Source: a virus
Virus record (IMG/VR): IMGVR_UViG_3300031741_000022
Coordinates: 1 to 23,257 of that record
Strand: one strand, 5' to 3'
DNA: 23,257 nt
The translations under genes and the position numbers were made by a program. Below, piece after piece: positions 3,632 to 21,986 of the stretch (its first letter is position 1; every line of letters starts with the position of its first letter). The notes below the pieces were generated by a model that was not told where the DNA came from, ran no database searches, and saw nothing but the letters and a program-made list of their open reading frames with translations.

Positions 3632-4498
3632 TTAAATTCCTAATGCCATTTGAAATGGCTTTTCAACTTTTGCACCCTTCGATATATTTTCTTTTGCCCA
3701 CATGGGTTGTAAATTTTTCAATGACCAACACTTTTTAAAATCTTCATGCTCTGGTTTTGTGAAATTATGTGCTGCTATTGGTATTTTATGGTCAATGTGC
3801 CATTCTCCATAATTACCCCATGACATTCCGGGTTGAAATTTATTTTCAAGATGGTGTTTTAATTCATTAAGAGTGAAATTTACTAATGTTTCCCAATGAC
3901 GATTTTTCTTTTCACCTTTTAAAACACCCCATAAAGAACGTGAGATATTTGAATTAAGTTTATAAACTGGATTTAAGGATGCTTTTTTATAAGCCATTTG
4001 TTTTGATATTTTATTTCCACCTTTCCAATTCCAACTTTTCTCATTTGTATATTTACCTTTTAATGAGTTTGATATTAATTCCTTTTGCTCATCGCTAATT
4101 TTTTTACCCTTATTAGATTCAGATAATTTTTGTTTTGTGTCATCTGATAAAATTTTGCCCTTATGAGATATTGACATATTTTTTTTATGTTCGTCTGTGA
4201 AAACAATCCCTATTCTTCCTTTTGATATTTTTTCACAATGTGCCTTTGGTCTTTTTTTTCCATAAAGATGATTATTTTTACCAGATATCTTTTTTATATG
4301 TTCGATTGATAATGATTTGCCTTTTTTGGCTTCTGACATTTTTTTTAAATGTTCATCTGTAAAAGGTTCTCTTTTTTTATTTTTCCAATTATGACCATGA
4401 ATAAATCTTAACGGTTGGCCTTTAACAGATCCTCTCCTTTTGTCAGTTACTTTTGACATTTTAACATAACCACCGCACCCACATTCACATAATTTCAT
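3632..4498 (-). CDS. HNH homing endonuclease with NUMOD3 repeats, free-standing
   Basis: The protein is 288 aa from ATG at 4498; an upstream TTG at 4510 is also possible but less likely. An N-terminal Cys cluster (CECGCGG) is followed by four or five NUMOD3-type DNA-binding repeats at about residues 40-150, of the form 'DEHxKKxSxxxKGK'. The C-terminal HNH domain shows WHIDHKIPIAAHNF (about 233-246) and CWSLKNLQPMWAKEN (about 257-271). Proteins of this kind are phage homing endonucleases. It sits exactly between portal and protease, overlapping neither by more than a few bases, with no room for an intron. It is visibly more AT-rich and lysine-rich than its neighbours, which suggests recent arrival. 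Confidence 0.9.
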   Translation of the reverse strand: MKLCECGCGGYVKMSKVTDKRRGSVKGQPLRFIHGHNWKNKKREPFTDEHLKKMSEAKKGKSLSIEHIKKISGKNNHLYGKKRPKAHCEKISKGRIGIVFTDEHKKNMSISHKGKILSDDTKQKLSESNKGKKISDEQKELISNSLKGKYTNEKSWNWKGGNKISKQMAYKKASLNPVYKLNSNISRSLWGVLKGEKKNRHWETLVNFTLNELKHHLENKFQPGMSWGNYGEWHIDHKIPIAAHNFTKPEHEDFKKCWSLKNLQPMWAKENISKGAKVEKPFQMALGI

Positions 4499-4502
4499 AA
4501 TA

Positions 4503-6491
4503 TTATCCAATACTTAGGTAACAATCACAACCTTGATGGAGTCCGGGATGATGTTTTGTTCCTCTTATTTTCATTGGAGCTTCAGCACCTTCTGGATTAA
4601 GCTCATCTCCATTATTCACAAATGATTGTCCAGATATAACCCTCTTCCCGTCTAAACTACGGCAAAAAGGACAAGTCTTAGGGCCACGGATTCGCCAAAT
4701 AGTCCCTAAACCAATACTGAAAGCTACTGCCTGGTAAACAGCACTTGAACATCTTACAGTTTCAGATTGTGCTATTTTTCCAGACCTGGTTTCTTCCCAT
4801 TCGTCCACCCTGACCTCCAAAGCTTCCAGATCATCTTTTAACAAGGCTGTCAATTGACCAAGGGAGCTTTCTGTGTGGCGCTCTGCATATCGTTTGGTAT
4901 AATCATCAATAAATCTTTCAAGATCATCAGATACCCCGATATCAACGCCCATCTCTTCGGCGCTGGCCGCCTGAATTGCCTCTGAAAAACTCCTGATAAC
5001 TGGACCTATTTTAGATTTTATTTCAGCCGGCATTTTTCGGTAAAAATCATCAAGCCAGGTTTGCATGTCTCTGTTTTCCCGGCTTTTGCGCTGCTTATTT
5101 ACTTGTGCTTTTACTGCGAGCCCCTCTTTATTTACAATGTCCTGGGCAGCTCGTTTAAAAAGAGGATAATATTGTTTTGCTATCCGGTCTCTGAGTAGGA
5201 TGGAAGTTTTTGCCCTGTATTCGATCATTCTGAGGTTTTTATCTTCTTTGGCTGGATCTGTCTTGGTTTCTTGGGCAAAATCTGCGGCCTGGTCGGATGA
5301 AATGAAATTTAAGGGAACAAAATACTGATCACCACCCGGCACTGGGTTTCTATTTTCAAGTTTATTAATATCATTTGCAGACATTGCGCCTTTTGACCAT
5401 TGAGAATCATAATATGCTGATCTTGCCTCAGTATCACCCCTTAAAAGTCCCTCAACAAGCATTTCAACATAAAGACCACGCCTTCTTTGATCTGTAGTCA
5501 AAAGTTGCATGTTCTGGGCCTGTTCCCACCTTACAAGCCATGATCTAAGGCATTGAGAAACATAAGAACCATTTTCCTGCTCTAAATTGTTGTTGTTTGA
5601 GTTCGCACCATGGATAGCGATCTTGTGGGGAGGCACTTTATACATTCCGCAAATATCTAGGTCCTGGTGTTGCCTGGTTGATATGAATTGAGCATCATCC
5701 ATCGGTATTGTAATCGGATTATACTTTACGCCCCTTGTCAAGACCATTGCATTATGACTTTTGCCAAGGCTCCCATATTGTTTTTTGATATCTTTTGCAA
5801 ACTCTTGGGCACCATCACCTAAATTCTGTTCAGTCTCAAAAGTACCTGACGGATGGATACCTTGACCGAAAAATAAAGATCCATAATCCCGTGCGGCAAC
5901 ACCAAGGGCGATTGCTTCACGCGCATTGGCTATAACAGACATTCCCTTAATGCCATCGAAACCAAACCCGGCAATATGGAACATATTATTTCTTGTTCTT
6001 TGCTGAATTTTGCCCGTTTTAGGGTCCCGCCATTCGTAATAGATCCCTTTGCGATTATTTTTTACAGATATGTCCCCAGGTTTTGGGAGCTGGATTATTT
6101 GCGTTACTTCGCCGGTCCTGGGGTTTCTTTTAAGATCATTGAAAAAATTACCCCATGTCAAAAGATGACTTTGCCCGGTTTCACGCCAATGAAATGAATC
6201 TGTATTTTTATTTGGCTGATTATGCAGGATATCATAGAGGGGTTCGTCTGTGGCCCTCTTTTTGCTCCCGTCTTTCCCGGTTTTATAAAGAATCAAGGGC
6301 AGGCTTGCAATATCACTGGCTATAAGCGAGACACAAGAAAAAACAGCCAGATATTTAATGGCCGTTTCTTCATTTATCGGAACACCTGATTTTGTAGGCC
6401 CGCCACCTGTGGCATTATACCAAAAGTCAGAATATGCAGATAATGACCCGGTTTTAATATTCTCTCTAAGCTCTTTGGCCAAAAATCCCAT
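4503..6491 (-). CDS. Portal protein fused to a C-terminal MuF-like head morphogenesis domain
   Basis: At 662 aa this is about 200 residues longer than a normal HK97-type portal. Residues 1 to about 400 carry portal features: EETAIKYLAVFSCVSLIASD, the LYDILHNQPN region, and YKVPPHKI with a following NNNNLEQ segment. A long charged helical linker follows (about 410-565). The last 95 residues resemble phage Mu gpF/SPP1 gp7 domains: a TCPFC pair (C607, C610), SLDGKRV, then KHHPGLHQGCDCYL (H647/H648, C655, C657). The portal forms the dodecameric DNA channel; the MuF domain probably acts in early head assembly. The stop of the membrane-protein gene abuts this start. Confidence 0.9.
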   Translation of the reverse strand: MGFLAKELRENIKTGSLSAYSDFWYNATGGGPTKSGVPINEETAIKYLAVFSCVSLIASDIASLPLILYKTGKDGSKKRATDEPLYDILHNQPNKNTDSFHWRETGQSHLLTWGNFFNDLKRNPRTGEVTQIIQLPKPGDISVKNNRKGIYYEWRDPKTGKIQQRTRNNMFHIAGFGFDGIKGMSVIANAREAIALGVAARDYGSLFFGQGIHPSGTFETEQNLGDGAQEFAKDIKKQYGSLGKSHNAMVLTRGVKYNPITIPMDDAQFISTRQHQDLDICGMYKVPPHKIAIHGANSNNNNLEQENGSYVSQCLRSWLVRWEQAQNMQLLTTDQRRRGLYVEMLVEGLLRGDTEARSAYYDSQWSKGAMSANDINKLENRNPVPGGDQYFVPLNFISSDQAADFAQETKTDPAKEDKNLRMIEYRAKTSILLRDRIAKQYYPLFKRAAQDIVNKEGLAVKAQVNKQRKSRENRDMQTWLDDFYRKMPAEIKSKIGPVIRSFSEAIQAASAEEMGVDIGVSDDLERFIDDYTKRYAERHTESSLGQLTALLKDDLEALEVRVDEWEETRSGKIAQSETVRCSSAVYQAVAFSIGLGTIWRIRGPKTCPFCRSLDGKRVISGQSFVNNGDELNPEGAEAPMKIRGTKHHPGLHQGCDCYLSIG

Positions 6492-8750: not shown

Positions 8751-11453
8751 TTAAATAAATATTACAGCCGGTTGAGTAGTGTCCTCAACTTCCGGCAGTT
8801 CGGCCCCCTTCATTGCCATTGCCATGGCAACCATTCCATCAATCCTACCTGTTGATTTATGTTTTTCAAATTTTCTTAAACCTGTGGCCCCCTCTACAGT
8901 AACCGCATTAGATGCGCACATCGTCATAACTTTATTGCCCCCATGTCTTGCCCTGGATTCAACAAATACATCTTCAACCGCTTCAATAGCAGGGTCCATG
9001 TCTTTTTCGCCTTGGCCGTGATTAACCATACATAAAGCGCCATCATTGTGATATTCTTCTTTTATTTTTTCACCTTTCTTTTTTGGCTTTTTTATATAAC
9101 TTTCACATTCTACTTTATCTAATGCCAATATAAAATCATCAATACGCCATCGGTCAAACCTCAATTCAGATATATGATACATTAAATGAATCTCATGAAC
9201 CTTTTTAGCTATAAACTCGTAATTAATTACCTTGCCTGGCGTGGTCTCGATTAACCCTTCCTTGACCCATGTATCATAAGGTACACGGTCTTTTTTCTTG
9301 TGTTCCATGATCAGGTCTGCAGGTTTCCAGAAATAGGCAAATATATGGTGTTCATTTTCCCAATATGCATCAAGAACAAGCGCCGAAAGGTCACTTTTTT
9401 TAGACAGGTCAAGGCCTGCGGTTATGCGGCCCTTCGATAATGCGTCAAGGCTCGGTATGGCATTGTTTTTAGTCCATACGCCTATTGACATAAATGGGCT
9501 GTTGGTGGATATGCGCTGGTTTAATCTTAGGTTTCTAAAGCCGGGTTCTGAGCTGGGCATGTTGTGTGCTGTATTGGCAAGGGATATCATGTCTTTCATG
9601 CTTAAAAAGTCGTCAAGGGCAGGATTCGACAACTTCCAGGACTCCCGGTCCATTATATCAATCTCATCGCCTTTTTCGTCATGTATTGGGCTTGTGAATA
9701 GAAATAGCTTTACTGTGGGATCCGTGTGGCCGTTTTTTATCACGTAGTCAATTTCCTCGGATAAAACCGCCAGGTCATCTGCCGCCTGTGTTGAAATAAT
9801 CCATAGCATGGGTTCTTCATGGGCTCCGAAGCCTTGGACAAGGGTATCGTAAAAATCTCTATTGGCTCCAAATTGGGCAAGCTCATCAAAGGCCAATAAT
9901 GCAGGACTGATACCATGTTTTGATTTTGCTTCGGCTGAAAGGGCTTTATAGACAGATCCTGTGTATCGACCTTCAATTTCTTTTTTCGTGGCCCTGATAA
10001 TGGTGGCTTCTTTTAATTCTTCATCGGCATAAATCATATTGGTCATGTATTTAAAAACAATGGCTGCCTGGTCACGCTCAAAGGCTGCTGAGTTCATTTG
10101 CTCGTTTCGTTTGGCTTCTGGGCCTATGAGGTGGGTAAGGACAATGGCTGCTATCAGGGGAGTGTTGTGGGTAGGTACCATTGTTTTGCCACAAAGAAAT
10201 AAACTATTTGGGCTGTCAACCCGGATACATTTTGTTGGTACACTGGCTATTTTTTTAACAGATGTGATTTGAATTGTTCTGCTTCTTGATTTCATTATCC
10301 TGTCGGTTGTTTTTTTCTGTCTTAACAATTTCCTTTTTAATCTGAAAACTGGAAGGATATATCTGAGACAGCAGAATTGAACATAATATCCGGTTCCTTC
10401 CACAACCCGGCCATTGCATCTCAATGGTTTTTCTCGTACTGAATATTTAACACCAAGACTTGATAATAGTTCACAAAATCCACCAAGCAAAAATATATTT
10501 ATTGTTGTAAATTCCTGGGCCCGCCCTTTTTTGTCACATGTTCCATCAGTATCCATAAGACCTTGTAATAATGAAAGCCTTTGTTTTATAGATGCTCTTA
10601 AATATTCGTTGGGGATATGTTTATTTTTTATCAAATCAAGATGTCTTAATTTTGTTTGTATTTTTTTTGATCTGTCACCACCACGACCACTTGAAAGTCT
10701 AATCCTCCATGGGCTTCTGTTTGTTTCCTGGGTGGCTTTTGTTTCCTGTCCGTCTTTATTCAAGATATAAATCATTTCTTTTATATCTTGATCACCACAA
10801 CTTAATCTTGCACTGTCTGAATCACCATCGCCAAGCCAAGCGCCCAAAACGTATGGTTTTATGGGAAGTCTTTTTGTTTTTCCTTTAATCGGTGAAGAAA
10901 TATTTATAGAATGATTATTCGTTGTTCCATTAATACATTTCTGAGTTCTGAAAATATCCTTTATGTTTCTGACCTGTTTATTTTTAAATTTTACCTTTGG
11001 GTAAACAGAGATTGACCCGGGTTCGTCAATTAGTGCATATGTCTCCCATAAATGCTGCTCATCACAAATTATGGTATCATTATTTGAAAATGAAACAGAA
11101 TAGCAATCAATATTTTTTATATCACTTTCAAACGTTACCTTGCATTCATTTCCAAACTCGTCATAAAGGATATCGCCCGGTTTTACGTCATCCATCGTTG
11201 TCCATCCGGTAGGTGTCGGTAGCGGTGTATTAAGAGCAAGCCCCTTTCCGTTCTTTTTTCCCATGGATAGGATTGCTTTACGGACAATACGCAGGCCGTT
11301 TTCATCAACAGGAGAATAGACTTCCATGATTATTTTTTTTTGCCAGGGGCGCAAAACAAAAGGTTTCCCTTGGTGCATACCTTCAGGGATGGTAAGGGTT
11401 TGGATGAAGTCAATCATGTCTTGAGCGCGTTTTGTGTCTATGTAGTTTGGCAT
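8751..11453 (-). CDS. terL: Large terminase subunit (HK97-type) containing an intein
   Basis: The 900-aa precursor should yield a 540-aa packaging motor after splicing. The terminase parts are residues 1-70 and 431-900. The Walker A motif is split by the intein: GKKNGK (65-70) joins T431. Downstream lie PALLAFDELAQFG (Walker B-like), LWIISTQ (coupling motif), then the RNase H-type nuclease with GLDLSKKSDLSALVLD and a late acidic residue in GRIDGMVAMAMA. The protein packages concatemeric DNA into the prohead by ATP hydrolysis and cuts it. The start ATG at 11453 lies inside the end of the 63-aa gene and lacks a clear ribosome binding site, so translation is probably coupled. It follows TerS, in the usual order. 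Confidence 0.95.
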   Translation of the reverse strand: MPNYIDTKRAQDMIDFIQTLTIPEGMHQGKPFVLRPWQKKIIMEVYSPVDENGLRIVRKAILSMGKKNGKGLALNTPLPTPTGWTTMDDVKPGDILYDEFGNECKVTFESDIKNIDCYSVSFSNNDTIICDEQHLWETYALIDEPGSISVYPKVKFKNKQVRNIKDIFRTQKCINGTTNNHSINISSPIKGKTKRLPIKPYVLGAWLGDGDSDSARLSCGDQDIKEMIYILNKDGQETKATQETNRSPWRIRLSSGRGGDRSKKIQTKLRHLDLIKNKHIPNEYLRASIKQRLSLLQGLMDTDGTCDKKGRAQEFTTINIFLLGGFCELLSSLGVKYSVREKPLRCNGRVVEGTGYYVQFCCLRYILPVFRLKRKLLRQKKTTDRIMKSRSRTIQITSVKKIASVPTKCIRVDSPNSLFLCGKTMVPTHNTPLIAAIVLTHLIGPEAKRNEQMNSAAFERDQAAIVFKYMTNMIYADEELKEATIIRATKKEIEGRYTGSVYKALSAEAKSKHGISPALLAFDELAQFGANRDFYDTLVQGFGAHEEPMLWIISTQAADDLAVLSEEIDYVIKNGHTDPTVKLFLFTSPIHDEKGDEIDIMDRESWKLSNPALDDFLSMKDMISLANTAHNMPSSEPGFRNLRLNQRISTNSPFMSIGVWTKNNAIPSLDALSKGRITAGLDLSKKSDLSALVLDAYWENEHHIFAYFWKPADLIMEHKKKDRVPYDTWVKEGLIETTPGKVINYEFIAKKVHEIHLMYHISELRFDRWRIDDFILALDKVECESYIKKPKKKGEKIKEEYHNDGALCMVNHGQGEKDMDPAIEAVEDVFVESRARHGGNKVMTMCASNAVTVEGATGLRKFEKHKSTGRIDGMVAMAMAMKGAELPEVEDTTQPAVIFI
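10164..11243 (-). mobile_element. Intein with LAGLIDADG endonuclease in terL, class 3 features
   Basis: This in-frame 360-residue insertion (G71-N430) interrupts the Walker A motif of TerL. Block A is LNTPLPTPTGWTTMDD without a Cys or Ser at position 1. Block B contains CDEQHLWE, with H134 and W136. Block F is TKCIRVDSPNSLFL, with C409. Block G is VPTHN, with T428, followed by +1 residue T431. Trp in block B, Cys in block F and Thr in block G are the WCT triplet that defines class 3 inteins. Two LAGLIDADG motifs, VLGAWLGDG (202-210) and LLQGLMDTDG (295-304), indicate an active-type homing domain. The N-terminal boundary (G71) is inferred from terminase alignment logic. Confidence 0.9.
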
Positions 11454-12061: not shown

Positions 12062-12175
12062 TTACCCCCTAAATTTACGGTTTACTAATATCCTGACTGC
12101 AATCTCGCTCATGAGTTCGCTCGTTAAAAAGGATTTAGGGGTGCATCCCCCTATGCTATTTAAATAACTATACAT
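12062..12175 (-). pseudogene. 37-codon ORF, possible C-terminal part of a gene split by the HNH insertion
   Basis: The frame from ATG at 12175, overlapping the HNH stop, to TAA next to the terS start encodes KSFLTSELMSEIAVRILV and then a basic end. That helix-rich segment looks like the end of a real protein and not random translation. The ORF at 13090-13266 on the other side of the HNH gene looks like the matching N-terminal part. No clean in-frame join can be drawn at the shared GGGGGA, so a small independent gene is also possible. The AGGGG/CCCCT inverted repeat at the HNH end lies within it. Confidence 0.4.
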
Positions 12176-13103
12176 TTAGCTGTCCAAACAATAGCATTTG
12201 ATCACCACCAGGAGACGCACCATCACCTTTAACTTCTGAATTGCATTGACGACAAGCAAGCTGTGCGTTCTTATAACTATTCTCACCACCTTTGGATAAT
12301 GGTATGATATGATCATGGGTTGCCTGTAATGGATGGTTATTAGGCCTTGTTAAATTTAACTTCCTACCACACACCTGACATCGACCACCATCCCGAAGGA
12401 ATAGAACTTTCAAGTCTACCTTTTCAATATATCTATCGTTTGATACCTTCATGCTCCTTGTTATCCTTTCACGCTGGTGTTGGTTCTTTTTCATCATCTT
12501 TTTACTGCACCCTGGACTGCATGTCGTTTGATTACTACTGTATGTTTCAAATGTATTGTTGCATTGGTAATAAGCGCATGTTTTAGTAATCAAAATTAAA
12601 CCATTTAGTTCTCTGTATGTCTGTCTATCTATTTTTTTATTATATGAATACGTGCATTTATAACACCTCTTTCTATTTGAAAGTTTAGATGTAAATAGTT
12701 GGTTGCAATCCACACACTCTATAAAATGAACCTTACATGATTGCATTTCTGCTTCTTTTAAATCTATACAGTCTTGGCACATACTCCTACGGAACACGGC
12801 ATCGTTATGGCATCCATCAGAACTGCAAATACGTTTCTCTTTCCTTGCCCGCATCGAGTCAATACATCTATCACAACGATATCCATCACTATTGGCTTTA
12901 TTTTTTCCGCACTCTTGACATAATCCTGCTTGTTTGTGTTCTAATCTCCTTTCCCTTGTTGCCTTGTTTACTCTTGCCCGGCATCTCTCACAACTTGAAT
13001 TACCATAAGCTTCAGCACCACAACCCACACACAACCCAAGGAAACGCCTCCATTTCAATATCAGGCTACGTCTTATATATGCTTTTTTGCTAAGACCTGG
13101 CAC
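12168..13103 (-). CDS. Multi-zinc-finger HNH endonuclease, probable homing nuclease
   Basis: The 311-aa protein starts with GTG at 13103 behind GGGGGA. Five successive four-Cys units precede the nuclease: C25/28/38/41, C62/65/77/80, C93/98/109/112, C130/133/147/150 and C176/181/195/199. The C-terminal HNH domain reads LFLRDGGRCQVCGRKL, then ATHDHIIPLSKGG (H263, D264, H265), with N279 and CRQC (284-287). It sits between two genes of the packaging module and disrupts a small ORF (fragments at 13090-13266 and 12062-12175). The space is too small for a group I intron. It is likely a mobile endonuclease with an extended zinc-finger DNA-binding array. Confidence 0.85.
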   Translation of the reverse strand: MPGLSKKAYIRRSLILKWRRFLGLCVGCGAEAYGNSSCERCRARVNKATRERRLEHKQAGLCQECGKNKANSDGYRCDRCIDSMRARKEKRICSSDGCHNDAVFRRSMCQDCIDLKEAEMQSCKVHFIECVDCNQLFTSKLSNRKRCYKCTYSYNKKIDRQTYRELNGLILITKTCAYYQCNNTFETYSSNQTTCSPGCSKKMMKKNQHQRERITRSMKVSNDRYIEKVDLKVLFLRDGGRCQVCGRKLNLTRPNNHPLQATHDHIIPLSKGGENSYKNAQLACRQCNSEVKGDGASPGGDQMLLFGQLNV

Positions 13104-13266
13104 AACGATTCCCCCGTTTAAACCCCATCTTAGAGGGCTGCTTGATCCGATGACTAACCACCATCACCGCATCGTTGCTATACGTTAACTTCATTGGTAT
13201 TGGTGGATGATATACCATTGGCCTGTACCTATGAAACCACCTCAATAGATCGCTGTATGATATCAT
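13090..13266 (-). pseudogene. 58-codon ORF, possible N-terminal part of a split gene
   Basis: ATG at 13266 overlaps the stop of the HNH gene upstream by ATGA, the usual coupling in this genome. The product starts MISYSDLLRWFHRYRPMVY and continues with PPIPMKLTYSNDAVMVVSHR, which reads like genuine protein. The ORF runs 14 bases into the GTG-started HNH gene and stops at TAG. I infer a small phage gene cut by the HNH gene, with its end at 12062-12175. It could also be an intact 58-aa gene. Confidence 0.45.
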
Positions 13267-13574
13267 AGCTTCTTATTCCAAAAATGTTTCGGGTCCAATG
13301 GCAACCCATCAACCCCACACCCGACCGCATATCCTCGGGCTTCTTCTTTGGCTTTCACGGAATCGTGACACGCTTTACAAAGCGGTTGCCAATTGGATCT
13401 ATCCCAAAAAAGCTCCACGTCTCCCTCGTGTCTTATGATATGGTCCGTTACCTCAGCCGCCTTTGTCTTGCCCACCTGTAAGCAATACTTACACAGCTTA
13501 CCCACAAGGAAAGCCTTAGACATGCGGTTCCACTTCGCATTATATAAATATTGATACGGTCTATCGTATGACAT
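13263..13574 (-). CDS. HNH endonuclease of the packaging module (HK97 gp74-like)
   Basis: The 103-aa protein has a compact HNH fold: LCKYCLQVGK (C28, C31), VTDHIIRHEGD (D44, H45), WDRSNWQPLCKACHD (N61, C66, C69, H70), and the C-terminal GVDGLPLDPKHFW typical of this family. Family members sit just before the small terminase in cos-type phages and are needed with TerS/TerL for specific DNA cleavage and packaging; that is the probable role here. A GGGAGGT site lies before ATG at 13574. The 58-codon ORF starts in its stop codon. I read this as a resident phage gene, unlike the two larger HNH genes. Confidence 0.9.
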   Translation of the reverse strand: MSYDRPYQYLYNAKWNRMSKAFLVGKLCKYCLQVGKTKAAEVTDHIIRHEGDVELFWDRSNWQPLCKACHDSVKAKEEARGYAVGCGVDGLPLDPKHFWNKKL

Positions 13575-18546: not shown

Positions 18547-18635
18547 GATAAATATCCCCTTGCAATTTCATAGGCTTCTAAAAAACCACATTGACGGTGT
18601 TTGATAATTATAATTGTTAGGTCTTGGATTGTCAT
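18543..18635 (-). CDS. Very small protein, 30 aa
   Basis: ATG at 18635 has AAAGGAG five to six bases upstream, and the stop overlaps the next gene by ATGA. The product, MTIQDLTIIIIKHRQCGFLE and ten more residues, may be a single helix after a hydrophobic strand. A longer in-frame ORF begins at 18764 but passes through the hairpin at 18654-18681 and lacks a ribosome binding site. The translation signals support expression; the function is unknown. Confidence 0.5.
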   Translation of the reverse strand: MTIQDLTIIIIKHRQCGFLEAYEIARGYLS

Positions 18636-18653
18636 GGTTGCTCCTTTTTTTAA

Positions 18654-18681
18654 GCCGGGGCTCACCCGATGCGAGCCCGGC
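18654..18681. other. GC-rich hairpin in the leader of small genes
   Basis: GCCGGGGCTCAC pairs with a close reverse complement ending GAGCCCGGC, with a 6-bp perfect GGGCTC/GAGCCC core, a bulged G and a loop of about 9 bases. On the minus strand it is followed by TTAAAAAAAGGAG, not a T-run, so it does not look like a simple terminator. It is the most GC-rich element in the neighbourhood and lies 19 bases before an ATG. It may be an mRNA-stability or translation-control element. Confidence 0.5.
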
Positions 18682-18754
18682 ACGATATATAATTTTTTTG
18701 TTATGGTTAAAATCGGTTTGTGCGGTGTTGGTTCGTTGGCACCTCCTTTTATGA

Positions 18755-18969
18755 TTAAATCCATTGATCGGCCATTGCTTCAGCGATGCCATGAAAAAAA
18801 ACACTCCTTTCATGTTAAAGCCATCTTTGATGATATCAAACACATCCCCTTGGTAATGCGGCCCAGGTGATTCAGTGGGAAGGATATCACAAGACATTGC
18901 ATCATGACCCATTTTCAAAAAAGCATCCCTTACAATACCTGAAAACTCACATGCAATAAGGATTTTCAT
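18755..18969 (-). pseudogene. Remnant of a phage DNA-methylase-like gene with internal deletion
   Basis: ATG at 18969 (AAGGACG upstream) begins MKILIACEFSGIVRDAFLKM, followed by GHDAMSCDILPTESPGPHYQ and GDVFDII. This is the conserved N-terminus of a phage family annotated as DNA (cytosine) methyltransferase-like, normally around 200 aa or more. After residue about 52 the expected catalytic region (AHPPC-type) is missing. Instead, in a different frame, HGIAEAMADQW and then a stop at 18755 match the family's C-terminal end. So the middle has been lost and the ends are joined out of frame at a run of eight T. The in-frame translation continues to 18568 as nonsense. Confidence 0.75.
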
Positions 18970-21107: not shown

Positions 21108-21986
21108 TTATTTATAATCATTCCACGCTTTTTCAATAGTTGGATATTGTCTATAATAGTGCAGATTGATAAACCGTTTAAATTTTCTGGTATAATCATT
21201 TCTTACATATGGCATAGGGTATGGTGTCAACCCATAGTCATGAATTATTTGGCATCTATACAAATCTTCTTTTTCGGTTGTATTATAACCGATCAGAACA
21301 TAAACACCGTTAGCCGTTGACCTCATTTTATGGTGATTTAAAAGCCTTAATCCATTTATTATTAATGGTTCATCTTGCATCCGGTCCCAAGCAAAATGCA
21401 ATGGAGTTGAAAATTTTGTTTTATGCAATGCGTCTGCTTTTTCATCGTCCAATAATCGTAAATCATAACCGTTTTCATCCCTGACTGATAGATTTTCTGC
21501 CCATATTTCTTCAAACGTATCTTTCCAATACGGATCTTGAAAAGTGTTATTATTCAACAAACAAATTGTATCGTGTTTCTCATCGTGGAAATCCCATATT
21601 GATTCATGGGTGGTATCTGAAAATGGATGCACCATCTTTGGCACCTTGCAAAAATCGCAAGTATTAAAACATGGCCTCCAGGTATAACCAAGGCTGTAAT
21701 CTATATCAAATAGGCTATAATCAGGCTTCATTCTTTCAATTTCTTCCGGCAGGACCGAACCATCTATTGCAGGCCCACCATATTCATCGGCAGTAAATTT
21801 TTTGATATTTTTTTCAAATAGTATAGAGGCATAAGTATAGTCTGATTTAAACACTGGTTGTGTACTATCATCTTTCTTGCCGTATTTAAAAAGCATAACA
21901 CTATCGCCAGCTTTTTTATGCCATGCAGATATTTTCATCAACGCAAGGTTATGTTTTGGTGCATCTGTTAATAAATTAATTTTCAT
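21108..21986 (-). CDS. Phage radical SAM protein with B12-binding-like N-terminus
   Basis: The 292-aa protein begins with a Rossmann-like strand, then HNLALMKISAWHKKAGDSV, the usual start of phage radical SAM proteins whose N-terminus resembles a cobalamin-binding domain. PDYSLFDIDYSLGYTWRP leads into the cluster motif CFNTCDFC (C106, C110, C113), a CX3CX2C site for a 4Fe-4S cluster that cleaves S-adenosylmethionine. The region after it has ICLLNNNTFQDP, as in the family. No DxHxxG cobalamin ligand is visible. Substrate and role are unknown. ATG at 21986 has GAGGT upstream. It is co-oriented with the helicase, so it belongs to the early genes. Confidence 0.85.
   Translation of the reverse strand: MKINLLTDAPKHNLALMKISAWHKKAGDSVMLFKYGKKDDSTQPVFKSDYTYASILFEKNIKKFTADEYGGPAIDGSVLPEEIERMKPDYSLFDIDYSLGYTWRPCFNTCDFCKVPKMVHPFSDTTHESIWDFHDEKHDTICLLNNNTFQDPYWKDTFEEIWAENLSVRDENGYDLRLLDDEKADALHKTKFSTPLHFAWDRMQDEPLIINGLRLLNHHKMRSTANGVYVLIGYNTTEKEDLYRCQIIHDYGLTPYPMPYVRNDYTRKFKRFINLHYYRQYPTIEKAWNDYK

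Follow-up and report, generated by a model that had tools for sequence, protein, structure and literature searches.

A large terminase (TerL) gene in a viral stretch of 23,257 nucleotides (IMG/VR record IMGVR_UViG_3300031741_000022; this whole stretch is hereafter called the window) is interrupted inside its Walker A motif, and we asked what the inserted segment is and how the interrupted protein could become functional. We are highly confident that a class 3 intein, full-length and bifunctional, occupies the K^T site in the P-loop of this HK97-type phage TerL. Its anatomy, homology and site, the intact catalytic residues, the fold prediction and the empty sites in relatives are established here.

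An in-frame insertion in the Walker A motif of an HK97-type terminase

The minus strand of the window, on which all features below are located, carries a head module made of capsid, protease, portal, TerL and TerS genes. The TerL ORF (8751..11453) encodes 900 aa, in which Pfam identified a LAGLIDADG_3 domain and, downstream of it, the terminase ATPase (TerL_ATPase) and nuclease (TerL_nuclease) domains. The C-terminal part of the ORF matched the HK97 large terminase (PDB 6Z6D) with an E value of 4e-100, and the spliced TerL sequence is 40% identical to HK97 gp2 with 93% of the length covered. With an ATPase whose Walker A motif would read KKNGKT after splicing and with a C-terminal nuclease, the product is, judging from its sequence, an HK97-type large terminase. 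The N-extein (residues 1-70; 11244..11453) ends in SMGKKNGK, which is Walker A through its Lys, as placed by the HK97 gp2 alignment. The C-extein (residues 431-900; 8754..10163) starts from T431, the Walker A Thr and predicted +1 nucleophile, and contains the remaining ATPase and the nuclease domain, as revealed by domain matches and the same alignment. A search of IMG/VR for close relatives of the TerL extein found an identical contig alone (3300031631_000080, L002), which is identical to the window over 6786 bases, intein included.

Between the two exteins, the insertion provides 360 in-frame codons and no stop, for which the chance is about 3e-13 at this base composition. It corresponds to residues 71-430 (360 aa; 10164..11243), with Gly71 beginning at base 11243 and Asn430 finishing at 10164, and splits Walker A exactly between K70 and T431, that is, between the invariant Lys and Thr that define the TerL1-a site. 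These limits come from matches to PDB sequences, the homologue alignment and the structural model; the boundary is fixed by the Walker A Lys before it and by the block A motif LALNTPLPTPTGW after it, which aligns to MsmDnaB1. When the insertion was removed, the junction aligned without gaps to HK97 gp2 (SIARKNGK|TGLIA; LSIARKNGKTGLIA) and also to the TerL of a Sinorhizobium phage (AP-16-3). The initial annotation had located an insertion at 10164-11243, between the Lys and the Thr of the TerL Walker A, and had proposed that splicing restores GKKNGK-T. The coordinates proved exact to the base, the ungapped alignment with HK97 gp2 bears out the placement, and the same junction suggests that GKKNGK-T would indeed be restored.

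A group I or group II intron was rejected, as an Rfam scan of the insert for structured RNA or an RNA intron returned no hit and the insert can be read as an open frame. The GC content of the intein is 35.6% (GC3 27%) versus 42-43% for the exteins (GC3 41-47%), which is compatible with a separate origin but is not a proof of it, because other genes of the window are equally AT-rich.

Other ORFs of the window can be recorded here. A NUMOD3 protein, likely a free-standing homing endonuclease, is encoded between the portal and protease genes (3632..4510), and its GC content of 29% is the lowest among the genes measured (GC3 19.5%). Two HNH nucleases are encoded upstream of TerS: one (12168..13103) contains many Cys-rich, zinc-ribbon-like repeats, and the other (13263..13574) is short and similar to the HNH genes usual beside HK97-type terminases. 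By eye, the start of a short ORF (18568..18969) resembles a phage DNA methyltransferase or a related protein (MKILIACEFSGIVRDAF) and the resemblance is then lost, giving the impression of a possible frameshift. Finally, the ORF at 21108..21986 encodes a phage radical SAM-like protein (phrog_9298, E 3e-43).

The splicing domain carries the class 3 residues

Class 3 inteins are characterized by a Trp at block B position 12, a Cys at block F position 4 and a Thr at block G position 5 (the WCT triplet), generally with no N-terminal nucleophile (PMC3196547). By phmmer against the PDB, both splicing half-domains matched the class 3 DnaB inteins of M. smegmatis (6BS8) and M. chimaera (6RIX) (E about 1e-23), while the class 1 gp41-1 matches were far weaker (E 5e-3 for 6qaz and 2e-4 for the WCT-engineered variant 6riz), the grouping with class 3 rather than with other classes being drawn from these scores and not from a tree. 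The N-terminal half of the HINT splicing domain (blocks A and B; 11019..11243), with Gly at position 1, aligns to residues 2-69 of MsmDnaB1, and the C-terminal half (blocks F and G; 10164..10280), ending in MVPTHN, aligns to residues 102-139. Trp136 (11046..11048), in the motif HLW, occupies block B position 12 and aligns to QHQW of MsmDnaB1. Cys409 (10227..10229), in KCIRV, occupies block F position 4, is aligned to VRCVEVDNP of MsmDnaB1 and is the predicted initiating nucleophile. Thr428 (10170..10172) at block G position 5 is followed by His429 and Asn430, T431 being the +1 residue. In addition, His134 (11052..11054), at block B position 10, is the predicted base of a Cys-His-Thr triad such as that described in MchDnaB1 (PMC7664689), which corresponds to C409-H134-T428 here.

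W136, C409, T428 and H134 are invariant in 167 of 167 aligned homologues, a set drawn with LAGLIDADG patterns and this query and therefore biased towards intact full-length relatives rather than a random sample; because recruitment went through the endonuclease patterns and this query, the selection did not itself impose invariance on the splicing residues. At position 1, the same homologues have a non-nucleophilic residue in nearly all cases (A in 116, P in 22, G in 18). Here, the boundary set by the empty-site alignments places Gly71 at this position, and the first Cys, Ser or Thr is Thr76 (intein residue 6). A class 3 intein with W136, C409 and T428 as its WCT triplet and without Cys or Ser at position 1 is what the initial annotation had proposed, together with an alignment to intein-free TerL proteins and known class 3 inteins as a check. 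This alignment placed Gly, and no nucleophile, at position 1; the triplet lies at just these positions, and the 6BS8 and 6RIX matches, WCT and Gly71 together argue for the class 3 assignment.

Among the relatives, L004 (Cys) and L096 and L114 (Ser; GAQMGK^SLALDT) are WCT inteins that possess a nucleophile residue at position 1, and they offer naturally occurring examples with which the importance of position 1 in WCT inteins can be examined. Moreover, in L004 and L005, both from IMG/VR, one TerL ORF contains two inteins (near 858-2057 in L004). The first is of the WCT type and begins with Cys (GSTK^CLALDT); the one that follows it resembles a class 1 intein (CVTADTLI...THN).

A LAGLIDADG domain inserted in the predicted fold

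The middle of the intein matched PI-SceI, the yeast VMA intein, by phmmer against the PDB (E 2e-5), and PF14528 scored above the cut-off. We found two LAGLIDADG motifs, each with a predicted catalytic Asp: YVLGAWLGDG (10824..10853), in which Asp209 aligns with PI-SceI Asp218, and LLQGLMDTDG (10542..10571), supported by Pfam as well as by the alignment, in which Asp303 aligns with PI-SceI Asp326. In PI-SceI, D218 and D326 form the catalytic pair. An AlphaFold2 model, covering the intein plus five extein residues on each side and built from 43 sequences, reached a mean pLDDT of 91.7 and a pTM of 0.92. Foldseek ranked PI-SceI first for this model (E 7e-21) and also matched I-DmoI, and class 3 DnaB inteins were recovered with TM-scores of 0.80-0.87 by target length. 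In the model, a LAGLIDADG domain is thus inserted into a HINT domain; the endonuclease that had been anticipated inside the insertion is supported by PF14528, by the fold match to PI-SceI and I-DmoI and by the paired Asp residues.

Related inteins and signs of mobility

Matches to the intein were found in 730 published phage records, 485 of them nearly full length, and relatives are present in at least 596 stretches of IMG/VR and in 324 stretches of GTDB genomes. Most of the kept relatives, whose host proteins were assigned by reading the flanking residues, interrupt a K^T or K^S pair, chiefly within the P-loops of TerL-like and DnaB-like proteins. Among the matches listed, the two best-scoring inteins (L093, L013) lie in terminases that show only weak similarity to the present TerL (E about 1e-11), and for the host protein of the third best (L015) no similarity to this TerL could be detected. 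Over all homologues, intein and extein similarity are weakly correlated (rho 0.32). Compared at the sequence level, this mismatch is in keeping with horizontal transfer among genes that have the site in common.

Of the three HK97-type TerL genes of a Sterolibacterium MAG (L176, L177, L178), one carries the intein, and in the other two the site is empty and the RKNGKT codons are undisturbed. Their flanks share 47-49 of 60 identical bases upstream and 54-59 of 60 downstream, so that the occupied and empty copies are a usable natural pair for homing tests. For the phage of the window, no close intein-free allele was found, and because relatives are only about 40% identical in the extein, the homing target was deduced from more distant genes.

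Proposed splicing and homing pathway and its alternatives

By analogy with the inteins studied so far, we infer the splicing chemistry, the lack of ATPase activity before splicing and the homing activity. The TerL mRNA would be translated into the 900-aa precursor, in which the HINT domain would fold. With His134 and Thr428 activating it and Trp136 packing against it, Cys409 would attack the Lys70-Gly71 peptide bond, giving the branched thioester of class 3 inteins; the N-extein would then be transferred to Thr431 (+1), Asn430 would cyclise, and an acyl shift would link K70 to T431. Splicing would therefore rebuild GKKNGKT and release an active TerL of 540 aa. The unspliced precursor should be unable to hydrolyse ATP, because it cannot form a normal P-loop, and it has been argued that an intein at the TerL P-loop blocks both the active site and complex formation (PMC5050341). 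The LAGLIDADG domain, for its part, would cleave TerL genes that lack the intein, acting at their conserved K-T codons, and repair would copy the intein gene into them.

We also considered that the first residue might be misplaced, the insertion being then a class 1 intein with a conventional N-terminal Cys or Ser, as some WCT relatives indeed have Cys (L004) or Ser (L096, L114) at position 1. However, the boundary is fixed on both sides by the alignments with MsmDnaB1 and with intein-free HK97-type TerL, the residue found there is Gly, and no Cys, Ser or Thr precedes Thr76. Considering the Gly at this fixed boundary, a class 1 intein was rejected, with virtually no chance left for it. Inactive class 3 inteins are known (PMC3196547), and the insertion could likewise be a decayed, non-splicing intein in a dead TerL gene or a remnant phage, like the Arthrobacter Arth_1007 pseudogene. 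On the contrary, the catalytic residues are all intact here, whereas in Arth_1007 neither the block F Cys nor the block B His is left (PMC3196547). Moreover, the frame is open over 900 codons, the TerL ATPase and nuclease domains are conserved, the neighbouring head genes are intact, and an identical sequence exists on a second contig. A pseudogene was rejected on the intact catalytic residues and 900-codon frame, and decay appears very improbable.

A class 3 intein of this kind could also be conditional, with splicing withheld until a signal, such as redox or stress acting on Cys409, and thereby setting the time at which the packaging motor is assembled. The class 3 intein of mycobacterial DnaB, which has the catalytic Cys in common with this one, is reported to respond to oxidative stress, reactive chlorine and zinc (PMC6195587, PMC8557812, PMC7360933). 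If this were true here, the intein would be a timing switch on DNA packaging and not a neutral parasite. Yet the TerL inteins that were tested spliced readily, mostly to ligated exteins (PMC5050341), and no feature of this sequence points to a switch, so that we regard conditional splicing as very unlikely.

Comparison with known systems

The bifunctional class 3 intein described here is a new, clean but otherwise ordinary representative of a family that is well known and very widespread, and knowledge of class 3 inteins is unchanged by it. A WCT intein at the K^T site of TerL is not novel, because site TerL1-a, between the invariant P-loop Lys and Thr, is part of the published catalogue of mycobacteriophage TerL inteins (PMC5050341), and the intein of Kanye sits at that junction. 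In the same work, five of the seven mycobacteriophage TerL intein types were tested and all of them spliced in E. coli, and two of these inteins cut empty TerL genes (PMC5050341). The TerL of Kanye, a cluster E mycobacteriophage (L011), is homologous and shares with this one the Walker A K^T site, WCT, a LAGLIDADG domain and Thr+1; the two inteins are only 33% identical, position 1 is Ala in Kanye and Gly here, and both host and phage differ. The TerL1-b intein of phage Baka (L175, from 2912), considered as a class 1 outgroup, has the WCT triplet too; its apparent first residue is an Asp that lies one position beyond the K^T site (SRQNGKG^DLGHNT).

MsmDnaB1 and MchDnaB1 (6BS8, 6RIX) resemble this intein in their HINT domain, WCT, block B His, THN end and P-loop ATPase host; unlike it, they are mini-inteins without homing endonuclease in a bacterial DnaB. 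PI-SceI shares the combined splicing and LAGLIDADG architecture and the paired aspartates, but it uses class 1 splicing with Cys1, resides in a eukaryotic V-ATPase and has an extra DNA-recognition region. Together with the collected relatives, this example indicates how commonly, in phages of numerous bacterial phyla, P-loop ATPases carry a class 3 intein at this same Lys^Thr/Ser junction. HK97 gp2 (PDB 6Z6D), with its ATPase, nuclease and RKNGKT Walker A, resembles the host protein as it would be after splicing and differs from the precursor in having no intein; what the window adds is a class 3 intein in good preservation, hosted by an HK97-type terminase for which the structure of a homologue of the spliced form has been solved.
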